NCBI GenBank assembly: GCA_951812805.1
Contig: CATOSZ010000003.1
Span: 2,186,557-2,250,556, forward strand
DNA length: 64,000 bases
DNA from: an uncultured Alphaproteobacteria bacterium
Lineage (GTDB): Bacteria; Pseudomonadota; Alphaproteobacteria; GCA-2731375
Direction: 5' to 3'
Shown here: piece after piece, positions 6,989-50,127 of the stretch
How positions within the stretch are numbered: the first letter of the stretch is position 1
How the letters are laid out: every line of letters begins with the position of its first letter
The notes under the pieces: model-generated
Databases searched by the model: none
Told to the model about the DNA's origin: nothing
Seen by the model: only the letters and a program-made list of their open reading frames with translations
Program-made: the position numbers and the translations under genes

Positions 6989-8302
6989 ATGCGTCTGCTG
7001 CCATGGCTCCTGTTCGCGGCTCTTCTGACGGCCACACCGGCGTTTGGCGCCGACGTCGCGTTCGGGCGATATCATGCCTTGATCATCGGTATCGACGACT
7101 ATCGCCATCTGCCGCGCTTGAAGTCCGCGGTGAACGATGCCCGCGCCGTCGATGAGGTGCTGCGGCGCGAATACGGCTATTCGACGACCTTGCTGCTCGA
7201 TCCGACCCGGGCACAGATGCTGCGCGCCTTGGAACGCGCGCGGGAGGAGCTGTCGAATAGCGACAATCTGCTGATCTTCTATGCCGGCCATGGCCAGCTC
7301 GACCGCGCGGCGGACAACGGGTTCTGGCTGCCGGTCGACGCGGAGGCGGACAGCCAGGTCGAGTGGGTGCCCGTCTCGACCGTGACCGGCATGCTCCGCG
7401 CGGCGACGGCGAAGCATGTCCTGGTCATTGCCGACAGTTGCTATTCCGGTACGCTGACGCGCGATGCCCCGGCACCCCTGGCGTCCACCGCCAGGCAAGT
7501 GGAACTGGACCGGATCGCCTCGCTCCGTGCCCGCAAGGCGTTGACCTCCGGCGGCTTGGAGCCGGTCTGGGACGGTGGCGGGGACGGCCATTCCGTCTTC
7601 AGCCGGGCCTTGCTGCGCGCGCTGCGCGGAAACCGTGAAGTCCTCGATGGCTACGGCCTGTTTCGCCAGCTGCGCCGCAACGTCGTCGTCAATGCCGAGC
7701 AGACGCCGACCTATGGCGATATCCGCTTTGCCGGCGACGAAGGTGGCGATTTCCTCTTCGTGCCGTTGTCCCGCGCCCGGGCGACGCCGCCGAAGGCCGC
7801 GGCACCAGCGGCGCCCGCGCCCGCGCCGCCCGACCCGGAGACGGTCTTCTGGCAGTCGATCCAGAACAGTACGGAGGCCGGCGACTACCGGGCCTATCTC
7901 CAGCAGTTTCCCACCGGCGTCTTCGCACCGCTCGCCCGGACTCGGATCGAGCGCCTCACGGCCCCGAAAGAGGTCGATGTCGCGGCGATCGATCCGCGGC
8001 AGGAGGAGATGGAATTGCTGGAGGATTATTTCGAAAACAGCGCGGCGGAGTTCCTGAACGAAATCGAGACGTATGACCAGAGGGAAAACATCCTTTCAGA
8101 CGGCGATGTGGATTCGGCCTTCGCCGCCGCCCTGCGCGGCTATGAAATACTAGCTTACGAGAATGAAGTCTTCACGGTGGATGTCGAAGTTGCCCTCGGC
8201 GGCGGTGCGGAACGCCATCTGGTTCTGCACTTGAGGCGCGTGCACGGTGCCTTTCGCAACCAGTTCTGGCGCAAATACGAGATTGTCGGGCATAGGCGGT
8301 GA
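6989..8302 (+). CDS. Secreted caspase-like (peptidase C14) protein
   Basis: A 437-residue protein with an N-terminal signal peptide (LLPWLLFAALLTATPAFG, likely cut after residue 20). The caspase-hemoglobinase domain covers about residues 27-250. The strand HALIIGIDDY is followed by the catalytic histidine H101 in IFYAGHG and the catalytic cysteine C151 in IADSCYSG. A Pro/Ala linker near 262-285 leads to a C-terminal region with VFWQSIQNSTEAGDYRAYLQQFP, a helical motif often found behind bacterial caspase domains. The last 100 residues (EDYFENSAAEFLNEIETYD onward) resemble nothing I can name. Such metacaspase-like proteins cleave after basic residues, but natural targets are mostly unknown. 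Two related membrane proteins and a rhodanese flank it. Confidence 0.9.
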   Translation: MRLLPWLLFAALLTATPAFGADVAFGRYHALIIGIDDYRHLPRLKSAVNDARAVDEVLRREYGYSTTLLLDPTRAQMLRALERAREELSNSDNLLIFYAGHGQLDRAADNGFWLPVDAEADSQVEWVPVSTVTGMLRAATAKHVLVIADSCYSGTLTRDAPAPLASTARQVELDRIASLRARKALTSGGLEPVWDGGGDGHSVFSRALLRALRGNREVLDGYGLFRQLRRNVVVNAEQTPTYGDIRFAGDEGGDFLFVPLSRARATPPKAAAPAAPAPAPPDPETVFWQSIQNSTEAGDYRAYLQQFPTGVFAPLARTRIERLTAPKEVDVAAIDPRQEEMELLEDYFENSAAEFLNEIETYDQRENILSDGDVDSAFAAALRGYEILAYENEVFTVDVEVALGGGAERHLVLHLRRVHGAFRNQFWRKYEIVGHRR

Positions 8303-8408
8303 CGGGACGGGGTGGGTGATTGGACTGCTCGCTGTGCCGTTTTTTAGATTTGCAAATAATATGTTACCAAGTATTGATTGTGAGAACCTTGATTGTGATT
8401 GTTTGGAC

Positions 8409-8996
8409 ATGGAGATATTCCGACAGAACCTCGTGAGCGGTTTGGAACTCGCGATGTTGCGAAAACTCGATAGCGAGGATTTCGAGGTTACCGTCCCGCA
8501 GACGATAATCTGGCTGCTGCTCTTGAACGCTTTCTATATCGCCGTGGACGTCACCATGACCTTGGTGCCGAATTCCGATACGGAGTTTGATCCGACATAC
8601 ACCTTTGTCGCAATTCTCTTCATGCTCATCGGCTACCTGATTGTTGCCGTCATCGAGCGTCGGGTCCTGGCGTTCGGCGCGCTTGTGATTGCGATTGTGG
8701 CGGGGACGCTTCCCATATGGCTCCTGTACTTCGGCTTCGAGACGGCATTGCATGCGACGGGATTTTACCCCGACCTCGACGCCATCAACGACCCGAAGAG
8801 AACGACCGCGACGGTCGTCCACGCCATCCTTTATTTGGTGGTCAGTCTTGCGATATCTGTGTGGTGGCTGGTCGTCATGTATCGGGCGATCGCTTGTGCG
8901 CTCGATGCCGGTTGGGCACGGACGTCAGCGTACTTCCTGCTGATTCTCGCCGTCGAATGTCTGCCCTCCGCATACTTCATTTACAGCGCTGTATAA
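8409..8996 (+). CDS. Small polytopic membrane protein, paralog of the gene at 5860
   Basis: The 195-residue product from ATG 8409 shares with the protein at 5860 the opening FRQN, RKLDSEDF, the PNSDT motif after the first membrane segment, and the same five-segment hydrophobic profile. The open frame reaches back to 8247, but only the start at 8409 aligns with the paralog, so the upstream 54 codons are left out. I cannot name a family. It follows the caspase-like gene by 106 nt of relatively AT-rich sequence that could hold its own promoter. Its position after the protease, with its sister gene before the rhodanese, suggests a duplicated membrane component of one locus. Confidence 0.72.
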   Translation: MEIFRQNLVSGLELAMLRKLDSEDFEVTVPQTIIWLLLLNAFYIAVDVTMTLVPNSDTEFDPTYTFVAILFMLIGYLIVAVIERRVLAFGALVIAIVAGTLPIWLLYFGFETALHATGFYPDLDAINDPKRTTATVVHAILYLVVSLAISVWWLVVMYRAIACALDAGWARTSAYFLLILAVECLPSAYFIYSAV

Positions 8997-9125
8997 GCTC
9001 GCCGTTCTCGCGCTGCCTTCTTGAACGCACTCTCCTTATTGCCGGAAGGCTGCGGGATGATCGCCGGATGGGCTCACCGCAGGCCGGTTCCGCGCTATAG
9101 TCCACCGGCAAAGGGAGGACATTGC

Positions 9126-9977
9126 ATGTCGATCATCGCCGAAGACGTCGCCGTCGAGGAAATCGAATATCTCCGCCATGGAGACCGAGGCCTGAACATG
9201 GTGTTGTGTCGGCCCGCCGGGCGGTGGCCGTTTCCGCTGGTCATCGACCTGCATGGCGGGGCCTGGACCGCGGGCGACAAGGCGGATTGCCTGGAACGCG
9301 ACCAGGTGTTGGCGCGGGCCGGTATCGCCGCGGGTGCGATCGATTTCCGAGACGGCGACGATGGTTATCCGACGTCGTTGCAGGACATCAACTATGCGGT
9401 CCGCTGGGCGCGTAGCCGGGCGGGCGAACTGGGCATCGATCCCGCGCGCATCGCGCTCACCGGCCAGTCGAGCGGCGGGCACCTCGCCATGCTGGCGGCG
9501 ATGCGCCCGGGGGATGCGCGTTATGGCGCGCTTCCCCTCGACGGCGGCTTCGGCGCGGAGGTCGCTTGTGTCGGCATGACCTGGCCGGTGATCAATCCGC
9601 TCTCGCGCTATCGCCATGCGCTGCGCCGGCGCTCGAGCGACGCGCCGCCGGCCTGGGCCGCCAACATCCCAGAGCGTCACGACCGCTATTGGGGCGACGA
9701 GGCGACGATGTCCGAAGGCAACCCCATGCTGGCCTTGGAGCGGGGGGAGGCGGTGCGGACGCCGCCCGCGCTCTGGGTCCAGGGCACGCCGGACGAGATC
9801 CACGACTACCCCGATCCCGAGAGCCCGATCCCCGGCAACGAGCCGGAGCGCTTCGTCGCCAACTACCGCAAGGCCGGCGGCGAGATCGACCTTGTCTATA
9901 TCGAACAGGACACCCGCGGCGGCCACGCCAGCCACGATCCCGTCGCGGCCTTCTTCCGCCGCCATCTGCTGACGTGA
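9126..9977 (+). CDS. Alpha/beta hydrolase, esterase-like
   Basis: The 283-residue protein shows the alpha/beta-hydrolase pattern of the hormone-sensitive-lipase/BD-FAE group. An oxyanion-hole HGGAW lies at 43-47, the nucleophile elbow is GQSSG with Ser115, and a C-terminal GGHASHD supplies the likely catalytic histidine. Such enzymes hydrolyse esters or amides of small molecules. The frame is open from 9021, but AAAGGGAGGAC directly before ATG 9126 fixes the start. Its TGA overlaps the GTG start of the following hydratase (GTGA), so the two are translationally coupled and probably act in one catabolic step series. Confidence 0.85.
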   Translation: MSIIAEDVAVEEIEYLRHGDRGLNMVLCRPAGRWPFPLVIDLHGGAWTAGDKADCLERDQVLARAGIAAGAIDFRDGDDGYPTSLQDINYAVRWARSRAGELGIDPARIALTGQSSGGHLAMLAAMRPGDARYGALPLDGGFGAEVACVGMTWPVINPLSRYRHALRRRSSDAPPAWAANIPERHDRYWGDEATMSEGNPMLALERGEAVRTPPALWVQGTPDEIHDYPDPESPIPGNEPERFVANYRKAGGEIDLVYIEQDTRGGHASHDPVAAFFRRHLLT

Positions 9978-44281: not shown

Positions 44282-45097
44282 CTAGCTTCCCGTCTTGACC
44301 GCATCCCAGTAGCGGGAGTTCAGAATGTCGAGCATGTTGTCGTGCTCTTTCTGCAGGCAGCGCCGCATGCCGCCATAGAGCGTGCGGTTCTCGGCCACGA
44401 ACTCGCAGAACCGCACCGCGCGCCGCGCCAGCTCGTCCGCACGCGGCGAGATCTCGCCGCCGCCCGCCTTCACCGCCGCCTGCCAGATGGCGTCGTTGGC
44501 GTCGGTCGTCAGCGTGCCGCTCGGCGGCAGGGCGTTGATCATGCGACTGGTCATATGGGCGGCGACCATATGGTCCTTGTTGCGATCGATCAGCTTGGCG
44601 CCAAGGGTGCGAAGCTGGCCGGCCATTGCCAGGTCGCCCTCCGTCATCGGCCGGGGATCGTCGGCTTGCGCCTCCGGCACCAGCGAGACGTTGCGGCCGA
44701 CCGAAATCGTCACATCCTTCAGCCCGAGCTTGTGCAAGCGGGCCTGCGGCAGGCTGATCTCCAGGGCGACGTGCGTCCGCTTGGAGTGGAAGTCGAGGTT
44801 TTCCGAGGCCGGCAGAGTGATCTGGCGGCCCGTCGCGTCGCGGCCGACCAACTCGAGATCGGCACCTTCCACCACGAAATAGCGCGTGCCGCGGACCGGC
44901 GTGTGGCGATCCGGTTGCAGGCAGAAGGTCGAGAACTCGGCCTTGCAGACGCCGTTCTCGCAATGCAGCGGCACCTCGCCCTTGGTCGCCACCAGGGCAA
45001 GGGCTTGCGGTGCGGCCTGGACGCCGCCGAGGGTCAGCAAAAGCGCGCCGGCCGAGGTCAGGCCGATGGCGAGGGTACGAAAGGTTGAAATGGACAT
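44282..45097 (-). CDS. Hypothetical secreted protein
   Basis: The 271-residue product from ATG 45097 has a signal peptide (TLAIGLTSAGALLLTLGGVQA) and otherwise no family I can name. Cysteines appear as HCENGVCKAEFSTFC near residue 48-62, RFCEF near 230 and RRCLQ near 245, which could form disulfides in the periplasm. GGAAGGAG precedes the start. The following TPR gene begins directly after its stop, so the two probably work together outside the cytoplasm. The frame is open further upstream, but without a credible ribosome site. Confidence 0.65.
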   Translation of the reverse strand: MSISTFRTLAIGLTSAGALLLTLGGVQAAPQALALVATKGEVPLHCENGVCKAEFSTFCLQPDRHTPVRGTRYFVVEGADLELVGRDATGRQITLPASENLDFHSKRTHVALEISLPQARLHKLGLKDVTISVGRNVSLVPEAQADDPRPMTEGDLAMAGQLRTLGAKLIDRNKDHMVAAHMTSRMINALPPSGTLTTDANDAIWQAAVKAGGGEISPRADELARRAVRFCEFVAENRTLYGGMRRCLQKEHDNMLDILNSRYWDAVKTGS

Positions 45098-45278
45098 TTG
45101 CAGTCTCCTTCCTCGCCGCGCCCGGTTCGTGCCCGGTCCGCGTCGTCGCGGCGGGTCGTCCGGGGTCCTGGCGAAACGCGCGAGGCGTTCCTCCCCAGGC
45201 GGGGAAGGAGCGCGCCGTCGCATCCGCGAGCGGCGTTGCCCGAATACTGCCAGCCGAATGCCGGCCCGGCAATGGGCT

Positions 45279-46193
45279 TCACGCAGGCGTGAAAGACCCT
45301 GCAATCAGGCGCAGCGCCTGGCAGGCGACGCTCGCCGCCAGCAGCGCGGTCATGCCGGCGACATCGTGCGGCGGGCTCGTCGTGTTGATGTCGACCGCCA
45401 TGATGTCGAGGCCGGCGAGGCCGCGGACGAGCGCCAGCCCCTCCCGCGCGGACAGGCCGCCCCAGACCGGGTCGCAAACGCCGGGCGCGGCCGCGGGATC
45501 GAACACGTCCATGTCCCAGCAGAGATAGACCGGCCGACCGGCGACGGCGGCGCGCAGACGGGTGGCGGTGGCGGCAATGCCGGCCTCGACCACCTCGTCC
45601 ATGGTGATCGTGCGGAATCCCAGCTGACGCGCATGGTTCCAGACGTTGGCGCAACCGGTCATGCCGCGCAGGCCGACATGCCAGACCGCGCCCGGGACGA
45701 CGAGGCCTTCCTCGCCCGCACGGGTGAAGGTGGTCGCGGTGTTGTAGCCCTCGTAGGGATAGCTGTCCGTGTGGGCATCGAAATGCAGCACGGCGAGCGG
45801 GCCGTGGCGGGCGGCGCCGGCGCGCAATTGCGGCAGGGTGACGGCGCCGTCGCCGCCCGCCGTCACCGGGATGGCGTCGGCGGCGTGGACCGCGCCCACC
45901 GCCGCCTCGATGGCCGCGAAGGACGGCTCGATCCGGCTCGCGACGACGGGGGCGTCGCCGCCGTCGACGAGGCCGAGGCGGGTTACGAGATTGTCCTCGC
46001 GCTCGGGCTCGTTCGTCTCCAGCAGGGCGGAGGCTCGGCGAATCGCCTCCGGCCCCAGGCGCGAACCGATGCGGTCCGGGTCCGTGCCGCAATCGAAGGG
46101 GAGGCCGAGAAAGACCGCCTGGGCGCCGGCGTAGTCGCAGGTGAACGGGGCGCCCAGAAACGTCGTCGGGCCTCGGTTGGCCGTGCTCTCCAT
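45279..46193 (-). CDS. Arginase/agmatinase-fold protein lacking one metal histidine
   Basis: A 304-residue ureohydrolase-fold protein. It keeps DAHTD (139-143) and WDMDVFDP (227-), two of the three metal-binding blocks, but the first block GGDHS is GGDGA, so the usual histidine ligand is Gly116. The C-terminal segment DIMAVDINTTSPPHD replaces the common EVxP motif and shows an Asn where Glu usually stands. Arginase-type enzymes release urea from guanidino compounds using two Mn ions. Here one metal site must be weakened or different. Its start is 72 nt from the divergent selenoprotein gene. The long frame above 46193 is a shadow. Confidence 0.78.
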   Translation of the reverse strand: MESTANRGPTTFLGAPFTCDYAGAQAVFLGLPFDCGTDPDRIGSRLGPEAIRRASALLETNEPEREDNLVTRLGLVDGGDAPVVASRIEPSFAAIEAAVGAVHAADAIPVTAGGDGAVTLPQLRAGAARHGPLAVLHFDAHTDSYPYEGYNTATTFTRAGEEGLVVPGAVWHVGLRGMTGCANVWNHARQLGFRTITMDEVVEAGIAATATRLRAAVAGRPVYLCWDMDVFDPAAAPGVCDPVWGGLSAREGLALVRGLAGLDIMAVDINTTSPPHDVAGMTALLAASVACQALRLIAGSFTPA

Positions 46194-46265
46194 CCCCTGT
46201 CTCCCCTCCGCCGTCATGGTAGAATGCCCATTCGAGCATGGTTCGACCCCGGGGAGGAATATCCG

Positions 46266-48011
46266 ATGAGCATGGACGACGGTGGGCGCTACGACGCGCT
46301 GTGGCCGCGCGGCGGCAAGACGATCGAGGTGACGCCGCTGGCGCCGCGCCTCGACACCCTCGAAGGCAAGACGGTCTGCCAGCTGTGGGACTATCTCTTC
46401 CGCGGCGACGAGATCTTCGAGATGCTGGAGGGCAAGCTGGAAGAGCGCTATCCCGGCGTCAAGTTCATCCGCTGGAGCGAGTTCGGCTCGACCCACGGCG
46501 AGGACGAGGCCGAGATCCTGGCCGGTCTGCCGAAACGGCTGGAGGAGCTCGGCGTCGACGCCGTCATCTCCGGCATGGGCTGCTGAGGCAGCTGCACGCC
46601 CGCCGTGCTGCGGGCGAGTGCGATTGCCGAGAACGTCGGTGTCCCGACCTCCTCCCTTGTCTGTGAGGGCTTTATCGGCCAGGCGGCCACGACCTCCGTC
46701 GGCATCGGCCTGCCGAACCTGCCGGTTGCCCTGGTGCCGGGCCATGTCGACAGCCAGTCGGACGAGGAGCTGTGGGCGAACGTCACCTCCGTCACCCTCG
46801 ACGCGGTGATCGACAATCTGCTGAGGCAACCGGCCGAGGCGGCGCCGATCAACGAGCCCGCGGCGAGCGATACCGTCTTCACCGGCGGCTTCGAAGAGGT
46901 GAACCGGTTCTTCTATGAGAACGGCTGGAGCGACGGCCTGCCCGTTGTCCCGCCGACCCGTGCCAAGGTCGAACGGTTCCTGGAATTCACCGACCGCGAC
47001 CCCGAGGCCGAGATCGGCGTGCTGGCGCCGGACAACCGGGCGGCGACGCCGTGGAACGTCGCGGTGAACGGCGTCATGGCCGGCTGCCGGCCGGAATACA
47101 TGCCGGTCCTCCTCGCCCTGGTCGAGGCGATGGCGGACGCGAGTTACGGCGTCGAGCACAGCGGCAACACGCCCGGTGCGGAAACCCTGATCGTCGCCAA
47201 CGGCCCGATCATCCGCGATCTCGGCTTCAATTACGAACAGGGCGTATTGCGCGACGGCTTCCAGGCCAACACGGCGATCGGCCGCTTCTGGCGGTTGATG
47301 CTGCGCAACGTCGCCGGCTTCCTGCCGCACGAGACCGACAAGGGGACCTACGGCGGGACCTGGCGGGTCGTGCTGGCCGAGAACGAAAGCGTGCTGCGGC
47401 GCATCGGCTGGCCGACCATCGCCGCCGACCAGGGCGTCGATGGCGACGGCGGCGCCGTCACCGTCTCGCGCTTCACCGGCGGGGACTGCATCGTCTCGGT
47501 CTACGGCCAGACGGCGGAGGAGATGCTGCCCTATCTCGCCGACGCGCTGGTCAAGGCGACCGGCTGGCAGCTTTGCTTCACCATCGGGCTTTCGACCGGG
47601 GGCTACAAACCGCTCCTGGTGCTAAGCCCGGTGCTGGCGGAGACCATTGCCAAGTCCGGCTTCTCCAAGGCCGACGTGAAGGCCTGGTTCTTCGAGCATG
47701 CGCGGATGCCGGCCTGGAAGTTCGAGAACTATATCGGTGCCTGGACCAACCTGGTGCCGGGCCGACGCAGCCTCGTCGACCTGGTCAACCTCGGCAAGGC
47801 GCCGCGTATTTTCGCCGAGTCGAGCGATCCCGAACGCCTGGTGCCGATCGTCTGCGAGCCGGAGGATTTCATGATCGCCGTCGCCGGCGATCCCCTGCGG
47901 ACCAACGCCTTCGTCTTCGCCCACAACGGCATTCTCGGCTTCCCGACCAGCAAGCCGGTGCAGCTGCCGGACGGTTGGGACGGCAAGCTCGACCGCGCGC
48001 GCGAGATGTGA
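46266..48011 (+). CDS. UGSC-family selenoprotein with C-terminal DGLPVVPPT domain
   Basis: The 582-codon frame contains one in-frame TGA at 46584-46586 (codon 107), read here as selenocysteine: ISGMGC-U-GSCTPAV. The motif is exactly U-G-S-C, as in UGSC-containing selenoproteins, and resembles the U-x2-C site of glycine reductase GrdB. A hairpin with a G in its apical loop follows (46593-46620). After the roughly 190-residue UGSC domain comes a 390-residue domain with ENGWSDGLPVVPPTRAKVERF, GVMAGCRPEYMPV and IGLSTGGYKPLLV, also found in the next gene. GGGAGGA precedes ATG 46266. Annotation programs would split it at the TGA. A broken gene is the alternative, but motif, hairpin and open frame argue against it. 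Confidence 0.85.
46584..46620 (+). promoter_or_regulatory. Selenocysteine UGA codon with bacterial SECIS hairpin
   Basis: UGA is at 46584-46586. Downstream, CGCCCGC (46597-46603) pairs perfectly with GCGGGCG (46610-46616) around a six-base loop CGUGCU. An A-A mismatch and three more pairs (UGC with GUG) extend the stem. The loop starts 17 nt after the UGA, within the range known for bacterial SECIS elements, and has G as its second base, as SelB recognition usually needs. Confidence 0.75.
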
Positions 48012-48015
48012 ACGG

Positions 48016-49194
48016 GTGGCGGCGGCGGAGAGTCTCTGGCTGCTGGTGCCGACGGCGCAGCGCCGCGACGGCGGCTGGATCGACGATGTGCTGCGCGAGC
48101 GCGTGGCGGAGGCGGGTCAGGCCGGCCGGCTGAACGCGGTCGGCGCGTTTCCGCGCCAGCGGGTCGAGGTGCTGCGCGGCGTCGACCCGGCGCGCGAGGT
48201 GGCGGAGCTGTACTACCGGCGCGGCTGGACCGACGGCCTGCCGGTGGTACCGCCGACGCTCGGCCGGGTCGAGGCGATGCTGCGCGCCACGGCGCGCGAT
48301 GCCCGCGAGGTCGTCGGCGTGCTGGAGCCGCTGCTGGGCGTGGCGACGGTGGAACGGATCGCCGCCAACGCGGTGATGGCGGGCTGCACGCCGGATCTAT
48401 TCCCCTTCGTGCTGGCCGCGCTCGAGGGGGTGGCGGCGCCCGAGTTCAACCTCCGCGGTGTGCAGACCACGGACGAGAACGTCGCGCCGTTGCTGTTGGT
48501 GAGCGGGCCCGGCGCCGCAGCCGCCGGCTTCAACGCCTTCTTCGGTGCGCTCGGACCCGGCTGGCGGGCCAACGCCACCGTCGGGCGCGCGTTGCGGCTG
48601 GTCATGCACAACATCGGCGGCGGCTGGCCGGCCGCGGTGTCCTTCGCCGGCCTCGGCCAGCCGGGGCGCTATACGCTCTGCCTGGCCGAGACGGGGGAAG
48701 GGAACCCGTGGGAACCGCTCGGCGTCGAACTCGGCCACGGGCCGGAGGAAACGGTGGTCGTCGTGCAGCGGGCGGAGACCTGCGTCAACGTGACCGGCGG
48801 CCTCGCCGACGTCGCCAGCGTGATGGGCTCGGCCGCCTCCCTCTTCACCATGCTGTACGACGGCATCGTCACTGTCGTGATCGCGCCCTTCGTCGCCGCC
48901 GAGCTGGCGGCGCGGGGCTGGCGCAAGGCGGACGTGCGGCGCCACCTGTTCGAAACCGCGCGGATGCCGGCCGAAGATTGGCGGGGGAGCTGGATCACCG
49001 AGCGCTTGATCGAGGCGGAACGCTGGCCCGATTGGGTGCGCGCGGCGGCGGCCGACGGCGCCATTCCCGCGGTCGCCTCGCCGGACGACATCACGGTCGT
49101 CGTCGCCGGCGGCGACGTGCCGATCCCGCAATGCGCCTATCTGCCGTCCTGGGGCTTTCCGCCCTGCCGGGTGGCGCGCGCGGTCGAGCTTTGA
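48016..49194 (+). CDS. Paralog of the selenoprotein C-terminal domain
   Basis: The 392-residue protein aligns with the C-terminal domain of the upstream selenoprotein: RRGWTDGLPVVPPTLGRVEAM near 75-95, IAANAVMAGCTPDLFPFVLAAL, then VGRALRLVMHNIGG and DVASVMGSAASLFTMLYDG. It has no UGSC domain; the first 60 residues (SLWLLVPTAQRRDGGWIDDVL) are unlike anything I can name. Shared cysteine context is MAGC. It starts with GTG four bases after the selenoprotein stop, so the two are coupled and may form a hetero-oligomer. No catalytic motif is evident. Confidence 0.75.
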   Translation: MAAAESLWLLVPTAQRRDGGWIDDVLRERVAEAGQAGRLNAVGAFPRQRVEVLRGVDPAREVAELYYRRGWTDGLPVVPPTLGRVEAMLRATARDAREVVGVLEPLLGVATVERIAANAVMAGCTPDLFPFVLAALEGVAAPEFNLRGVQTTDENVAPLLLVSGPGAAAAGFNAFFGALGPGWRANATVGRALRLVMHNIGGGWPAAVSFAGLGQPGRYTLCLAETGEGNPWEPLGVELGHGPEETVVVVQRAETCVNVTGGLADVASVMGSAASLFTMLYDGIVTVVIAPFVAAELAARGWRKADVRRHLFETARMPAEDWRGSWITERLIEAERWPDWVRAAAADGAIPAVASPDDITVVVAGGDVPIPQCAYLPSWGFPPCRVARAVEL

Positions 49195-49218: not shown

Positions 49219-50127
49219 ATGGCGCCTGAACGGATCACCGACGATCTGGTCGTCATCGGCGGCGGCCTCGCCGGGCTCGCCGCGGCCGATCACGCCCGTG
49301 CGCTCGGCCTCTCGGTCACCCTGTGCGAGGGGGAGATGCCGGGCGGGCTCATCGCCAATGTCGGTGCGGTCGAGGGCGTGCCGTCGAACGAGGCGGTCGG
49401 CGGCGCGGAATACGCCTACCGGCTGCTGGACCGGGCGATGAACGCCGGCGCCGCCTATCATCCAGGCGTCATCGAACGCCTCGACTTCGCGGACGGTCGT
49501 GCCGTCGTCGAGGCCGAGGGCAAGCGCCTGGTGAGCGACCATATCGTGCTCGCCACCGGCGCCCGCTTGCGCAAGCTGGGCGTGCCGGGGGAGGACCGGT
49601 TGACCGGGCGCGGCGTCTCGCAATGCGCCTTTTGCGACGCCGGGTTCTTCCGGGACGAGGACGTGGTCGTGGTCGGTGGCGGCGACGCGGCACTGCAGGA
49701 GGCGTTGCATCTGGCCGAGGGCTGTCGAAGCGTCACGCTCGTCCATCGCGCCAACCGCCTGCGCGCCAAGCCCGCCGCGGTCGCCCGTGCCGCCGACGAC
49801 TCCAAATTCCGCTTTCGCTGGGAGGCGCAGGTGGCCGAGATCGTGGGCACGGAGACGGTCGAGGGTGTGCGCCTCGTCGGCGGTGAGGAGATCGCCTGCA
49901 CCGGCGCCTTCGTCTTCATCGGCAGCGCGCCCAACACGGAGCTTGCATCGGCCGAGGTGGCGCGGGACGGGGAGGGCGCCCTCGTCGTCGACGGCGACCT
50001 CAGGACGTCCCAGCCCGGCCTCTATGCCGCCGGCGCCGTGCGGGCCGGCAGTGGTGGCCAGTTGTTGCAGGTCATGGCGGACGGCGTCACCGCGGCGCGG
50101 ACCGTCGCCCGCGCTCTTGCAGTTTAG
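49219..50127 (+). CDS. Thioredoxin-reductase-like flavoprotein
   Basis: A 302-residue pyridine-nucleotide-disulfide oxidoreductase of the low-molecular-weight TrxR type. The FAD loop GGGLAGLAAA is near residues 14-23, the redox pair C136-AF-C139 in GVSQCAFCD matches the TrxR CATC site, VVVGGGDAALQEAL near 150-163 binds NAD(P), and HRANRLRAKP suits the NADPH phosphate. The C-terminal FAD motif is DLRTSQPGLYAAGAV. It lies 24 nt after the domain paralog and ends four bases into the convergent parE. Its likely task is to reduce the Sec-containing protein, directly or through a thioredoxin. Confidence 0.9.
   Translation: MAPERITDDLVVIGGGLAGLAAADHARALGLSVTLCEGEMPGGLIANVGAVEGVPSNEAVGGAEYAYRLLDRAMNAGAAYHPGVIERLDFADGRAVVEAEGKRLVSDHIVLATGARLRKLGVPGEDRLTGRGVSQCAFCDAGFFRDEDVVVVGGGDAALQEALHLAEGCRSVTLVHRANRLRAKPAAVARAADDSKFRFRWEAQVAEIVGTETVEGVRLVGGEEIACTGAFVFIGSAPNTELASAEVARDGEGALVVDGDLRTSQPGLYAAGAVRAGSGGQLLQVMADGVTAARTVARALAV

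Follow-up and report, generated by a model that had tools for sequence, protein, structure and literature searches.

UGSC selenoproteins were reported in 2008 from the Global Ocean Sampling survey, and the parts of that survey concerned with the family counted 255 sequences, guessed a thioredoxin-like fold and already contained a fusion of UGSC to a domain named Unknown_1 (PMC2398784). By number, UGSC proteins thus rank high among the selenoproteins found in aquatic bacteria. The UxxC redox motif is shared with the thioredoxin-like UxxC selenoproteins, and UxxC with Sec is found also in GrdB/PrdB of the glycine, sarcosine, betaine and D-proline reductases. Glycine reductase receives its electrons from thioredoxin reductase, and in the scheme for D-proline reductase the selenolate of PrdB attacks the substrate, a Cys resolves the intermediate, and a reductase chain restores the starting state (PMC3091704).

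The gene considered here lies in the window, by which is meant the whole stretch of 64,000 nucleotides analysed, from an uncultured alphaproteobacterium. An earlier note on this DNA had placed the gene in a selenoprotein family named from marine surveys, which the publication bears out; its novelty was overrated, since both the family and the UGSC/Unknown_1 fusion are in the survey's treatment of UGSC (PMC2398784). With the 2008 family (PF24696, NF041046), so far as it is described there, the gene shares the UGSC Sec motif, the PF24696 domain and the fusion to an unannotated domain, whereas its subfamily differs by the motif C-U-G-S-C, a score below the NF041046 cut-off, and a conserved operon with a second copy of the fused domain, here called Unk1, and a thioredoxin reductase-like (TrxR-like) gene. 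The kind of selenoprotein is already known; new are the operon, the likeness of the Sec site to that of GrdB/PrdB, and Unk1 as a constant partner. Unk1 is probably the Unknown_1 of that survey's account (PMC2398784).

The UGSC-Unk1 Gene and Its Selenocysteine Codon

Table 1. Features of the UGSC-Unk1 locus, with positions counted from the first nucleotide of the window
Feature	Position	Strand	Remarks
UGSC-Unk1 fusion, very probably a selenoprotein gene	46266..48011	+	581 aa, Sec at residue 107
UGSC domain (PF24696)	46299..46808	+	predicted alpha/beta, Rossmann/flavodoxin-like; strand 99-105 precedes Sec and helix 110-123 follows it
TGA codon, almost certainly read as selenocysteine (U107)	46584..46586	+	codon kept in paralogues, relatives and named homologues
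Cys110 of UxxC, probably the resolving cysteine	46593..46595	+	the same in every row of alignment A1; conserved to 90% or more in A2
bSECIS-like hairpin	46597..46616	+	codons under the gene's strongest synonymous constraint; stem disrupted in the Cys homologue
C-terminal partner domain Unk1	46851..47981	+	nearly invariant Cys in VMAGC; about 380 aa
Stand-alone Unk1 paralogue, second operon gene	48016..49194	+	begins with GTG, 4 nt beyond the stop of the fusion gene
TrxR-like FAD/NAD(P)H disulfide reductase with CAFC, third operon gene	49219..50127	+	PF07992, 142 bits

The reading frame opens with ATG 46266 behind a Shine-Dalgarno sequence, GGAGGA, at 46253-46258, and closes at TGA 48009-48011, with the TGA of codon 107 as its sole internal stop. 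The context GMGC-U-GSC-T and the long coherent frame beyond it, described in the earlier note, were confirmed, 474 sense codons being counted after the TGA. As that note foresaw for gene callers, the default ORF list has two entries in place of this gene, 44886-46586 and 46605-48011, divided at the TGA, and standard annotation pipelines are likely to cut UGSC genes at the Sec codon. The additional cysteine next to Sec, Cys106, is present as claimed but marks the subfamily, in which it occurs in 78 of 80 sequences; in most other UGSC types the position holds Asp.

The Sec site is kept in nearly all the sequences compared. Eight PF24696 genes were found in the genome, each with one in-frame TGA at the same site. 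Related genomes yielded 110 PF24696 matches, from 23 of 96 genomes, with one TGA in 109 of them, and the remaining match is a fragment at a contig edge that lacks the Sec site. A scan of named genomes returned 80 homologues of the full fusion, 79 with the TGA, while a phylum-wide draw found the family sparse (5/398 genomes). Homologues that end naturally at the Sec site, which would have spoken against the Sec reading, were not seen among these sequences, homology running across the TGA.

The sole named fusion homologue with Cys (TGT) at the site is that of Hydrogenophaga intermedia S1, and Cys is also found there in stand-alone UGSC genes of two genomes, G235 and G367. The comparison with Cys homologues that had been suggested thus places the Cys at exactly the position of codon 107, and the fusion-type case has a decayed hairpin. 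A change from Sec to Cys is the simpler reading for H. intermedia, because its genome retains selB and its homologue groups among the Sec rows of the tree, with an SH-aLRT of 98 for the five-row clade. In the same tree six records of metagenome-assembled genomes labelled Klebsiella pneumoniae, Bordetella parapertussis or Chitinophaga (L136, L160, L168, L170, L172, L175) cluster with betaproteobacterial ones, and these species labels are probably wrong. A divergent fusion, L088:6810-8438, has U-S-S-C in place of UGSC, with a strong hairpin directly after the TGA (GCCCGAC GGTC GTCGGGC).

The Hairpin after the UGA and the Sec Machinery

In a bSECIS element a G stands within the first two positions of the loop, 16-37 nt after the UGA. 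The hairpin in the window agrees with this in loop G position and in spacing, and it is built as the earlier note described it: a 7-bp stem pairs CGCCCGC (46597-46603) with GCGGGCG (46610-46616) around the six-base loop CGTGCT (46604-46609), which begins 17 nt past the TGA. The hairpin proved to be conserved as well as constrained. Synonymous variation was measured over 132 conserved codon columns, in TGA-bearing fusion genes only and for residues with at least four codons, and the four least variable columns were codons +5, +6, +7 and +9 after the TGA, which lie in the hairpin. Codons +6, +7 and +9 (GCC, GTG, CGG) were invariant in 80 of 80 genes and codon +5 was CCC in 77 and CCT in 3, against a mean synonymous entropy of 1.41 bits across the 132 columns.

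Among 76 distinct fusion sequences the stem pairs 14-27 to 17-24 are intact in all 76, pair 12-29 is G-C, A-U or G-U in 69, with G-C/A-U compensation, and the outermost pair 11-30 is kept in only 36. Other UGSC types carry a hairpin of different sequence in nearly the same place, with C-G/G-C compensation at pair 18-24 (26 and 10 of 38). In the Cys homologue of H. intermedia the two central pairs have become C-C and G-G, and its folding z of 0.68 is at the level of shuffled sequences. The UGA with the following 42 nt of the window gene, folded alone, reached -25.2 kcal/mol (z -2.84, 3 of 200 shuffles as stable). This folding energy is modest evidence, because other members that conserve the hairpin have z near 0 (for example -0.08 in L177), and in L177 and L033 the minimum free energy alone fails to single out the hairpin. 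Since neither pair 11-30 nor the folding energy is uniformly good, the claim of a hairpin is based on its conservation, the codon constraint and the Cys case. An Rfam search at E up to 1 gave no match to a SECIS family, only unrelated weak matches.

The genome (7.4 Mb, 98.5% complete) was also searched for the Sec machinery, as had been proposed, and every component sought was found above its cut-off: tRNA-Sec at 70 bits, called SeC (tca) by ARAGORN; selA (572 bits) and selB (447 bits), adjoining each other; and selD (285 bits), 1.4 kb from the tRNA-Sec gene. Among the 80 named loci selB lies within about 10 kb of the fusion gene in 11 and selA in 4; several of these 11 are close kin and form about five groups by tree.

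Since the TGA is kept in paralogues, relatives and homologues, and the hairpin codons are the least variable synonymously, the arrangement is more than chance. By these comparisons codon 107 is almost certainly read as Sec, and the gene very probably encodes a selenoprotein, UGSC fused to Unk1, with a constant UGSC-Unk1 pairing. Were the TGA instead erroneous or a genuine stop, with a second gene or the remains of a pseudogene following it, the split in the default ORF list would be explained, and the internal GTG at 46605 could start the second part; this is highly improbable, as the same TGA recurs at the rates given above (79/80 named homologues, 8/8 paralogues, 109/110 matches of relatives), homology is unbroken across it, a Cys codon occupies the site in L185, G235 and G367, and synonymous constraint is highest just after it. 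If UGA were generally reassigned or suppressed and so read as Trp or Cys, the frame would likewise be open, whichever residue is assigned, but this is hardly credible: tRNA-Sec, selA, selB and selD are all present, UGA also terminates the UGSC-Unk1 gene itself, and in homologues the residue is replaced by Cys at this position alone, the replacement in the fusion homologue going with a lost hairpin.

Fold of the UGSC Domain and Likeness to GrdB/PrdB

Membership in the UGSC family follows from a PF24696 profile match of 97.1 bits (cut-off 25), while the NCBIfam equivalog NF041046 (UGSC_fam) scored 50.2 bits, below its cut-off of 125, so that the protein is a relative of that equivalog and not a member. 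An AF2 model of the fusion, from 39 sequences and with Cys replacing Sec, reached a pLDDT of 88.8 and a pTM of 0.90 and gave an alpha/beta N-terminal domain. It matched best to FerB, with a Foldseek E of 6e-4, and to PurE, where Z was 9.9 across 123 residues, and the fold of the UGSC domain is predicted to be flavodoxin/Rossmann-like, although a shared fold does not show function. The thioredoxin-like UxxC selenoproteins would probably differ in this respect, the predicted fold and the structural matches listed by Foldseek and VIA-align for the UGSC protein being Rossmann/flavodoxin-like. A PDB sequence search with the fusion profile gave no credible match.

The earlier note had likened the site to the Sec centre of GrdB. 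Comparison by hhalign of UGSC with the PF07355 selenoproteins of the same genomes aligned Sec on Sec at E 8e-6 to 7e-5 over 46-69 columns, above 35 decoy profiles, the best of which reached E 0.018. To that extent the resemblance held, as a suggestive one; membership did not, as the families that 39 UGSC or Unk1 proteins matched at E 1 or better do not include PF07355. Because the UGSC proteins lack a PF07355 match, the likeness to GrdB/PrdB is taken as one of the active site, and the partner domain, Unk1, differs as well. PF09338 (GrdE/PrdA) gave no match in the window's genome and 16 relatives, nor in the control genomes.

The genome has four PF07355 matches of its own, of the GrdB/PrdB type (L216:6552-10768, L217, L218, L219), and those read out are selenoproteins, for example with PVUPNCTRAV. 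The gene in L216 is interrupted by apparently two transposase-type genes (7346-9495). A pairing of these GrdB/PrdB-type selenoproteins with Unk1 was tested and rejected, Unk1 not lying beside them.

Unk1 and the Operon

Besides the C-terminal part of the fusion, Unk1 accounts for the greater part of the second operon gene and also closes the protein of a second fusion type; neither Pfam nor NCBIfam has a model for it. In 46 of 47 loci drawn from the window's genome and its relatives, Unk1 either follows UGSC in a fusion or is encoded by a same-strand neighbour, most often immediately upstream of UGSC, and in the single exception, L107, it lies on another contig. Of the 96 related genomes 23 have UGSC, and Unk1 was found in precisely those 23, a raw count uncorrected for kinship, with 15 of the 23 from one family and the other 8 from eight different families. 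Structure prediction for Unk1 alone gave a pLDDT of 85.4, and structure searches by Foldseek and VIA found no confident match. The best of the matches, to class I fumarase (E 2.5e-3 by Foldseek, Z 4.8 by VIA) and to cyclic amide hydrolases, do not rise above background and were set aside.

The window copy heads an operon in which the fusion gene is followed by the second Unk1 gene and, 24 nt after it, by the TrxR-like gene, whose product scored 234 bits with TIGR01292, below the equivalog cut-off of 343. Across 81 loci, the 80 named ones and the window, with neighbours called by a gene caller trained on the conserved family, a stand-alone Unk1 gene was found in 42, where it is the next same-strand gene downstream in 33 cases, and a TrxR-like gene in 31, where it is the second such gene in 24. 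The TrxR-like gene was not seen beside other UGSC types in the 47 loci of the window's genome and relatives. A literature search on UGSC with operon and thioredoxin reductase met no UGSC operon described by title or abstract, and one pairing "UGSC family" with selenoprotein found nothing.

Directly upstream of the fusion gene in the window, on the minus strand (45282-46193), lies the gene of a divergent agmatinase-group ureohydrolase, which scored 146 bits with TIGR01230, under that model's cut-off. At L114, L138, L177 and other fusion loci the frequent neighbours resemble, by sequence, transporters (Bug-type, TRAP, ABC), CoA transferases and luciferase-like monooxygenases, and these neighbours look like a catabolic context.

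A Proposed Mechanism and Its Alternatives

The constant Unk1 partner and, in this branch, the TrxR-like gene suggest a selenium-dependent reductase. With SelB and tRNA-Sec, the hairpin that follows the UGA very probably directs the ribosome to insert Sec at residue 107. In the proposed mechanism the selenolate of Sec107, at a helix N-terminus after the central beta strand, would attack or reduce a small substrate that Unk1 may help to hold; Cys110 would resolve the selenium intermediate to give a selenenyl-sulfide, and the TrxR-like protein of the operon would restore the Sec107-Cys110 pair using NAD(P)H. The scheme for PrdB (PMC3091704) fits U107, Cys110 and the TrxR-like gene, by analogy; the substrate and the role of Unk1 we infer. 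That UGSC-Unk1 is an NAD(P)H-fed Sec reductase of the GrdB/PrdB kind is accordingly put forward by analogy as a tentative reading, with a little less than an even chance. The wider proposal, that UGSC with Unk1, and in some cases the TrxR-like protein, forms an undescribed class of selenium-dependent reductase complexes, mainly of proteobacteria, analogous to or distantly derived from GrdB/PrdB, with a different partner subunit and up to eight versions per genome for different substrates, is more tentative still.

The protein might instead be a general thiol/selenol oxidoreductase or peroxidase, antioxidant and thioredoxin-like, with Unk1 as its client or scaffold. UxxC is a generic redox motif, the TrxR-like gene is adjacent, and a thioredoxin-like fold was the guess of the 2008 survey in its account of the family (PMC2398784); this reading is nevertheless unlikely, if a serious contender, as the AF2 model predicts a Rossmann/flavodoxin-like fold with matches to FerB, PurE and similar folds, and as the up to eight paralogues per genome, nearly all with Unk1, suggest substrate-specific enzymes. 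A hydrolase, lyase or isomerase, in which the selenolate would act as a nucleophile with no net redox change and the TrxR-like protein would merely keep Sec reduced, would suit the weak resemblance in fold that Unk1 bears to cyclic amide hydrolases and the class I fumarase. It is distinctly improbable, those matches being at background level and the paired cysteine of UxxC and the TrxR-like gene pointing to redox turnover.

The Unk1 partner, the TrxR-like operon gene and the GrdB/PrdB-like site make the function of UGSC a testable biochemical question. Two isolates have the fusion gene: Xanthobacter aminoxidans ATCC BAA-299, in which the TrxR-like gene comes immediately after it, and Variovorax sp. 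WDL1. In the latter, SelA and SelB near the fusion gene were confirmed by profile. Next to its UGSC-Unk1 gene, the stretch L183:1456-8057 of this strain also holds a second UGSC-type N-terminus and a TrxR-like gene as well as selA and selB, and it is possibly a transferable Sec package.
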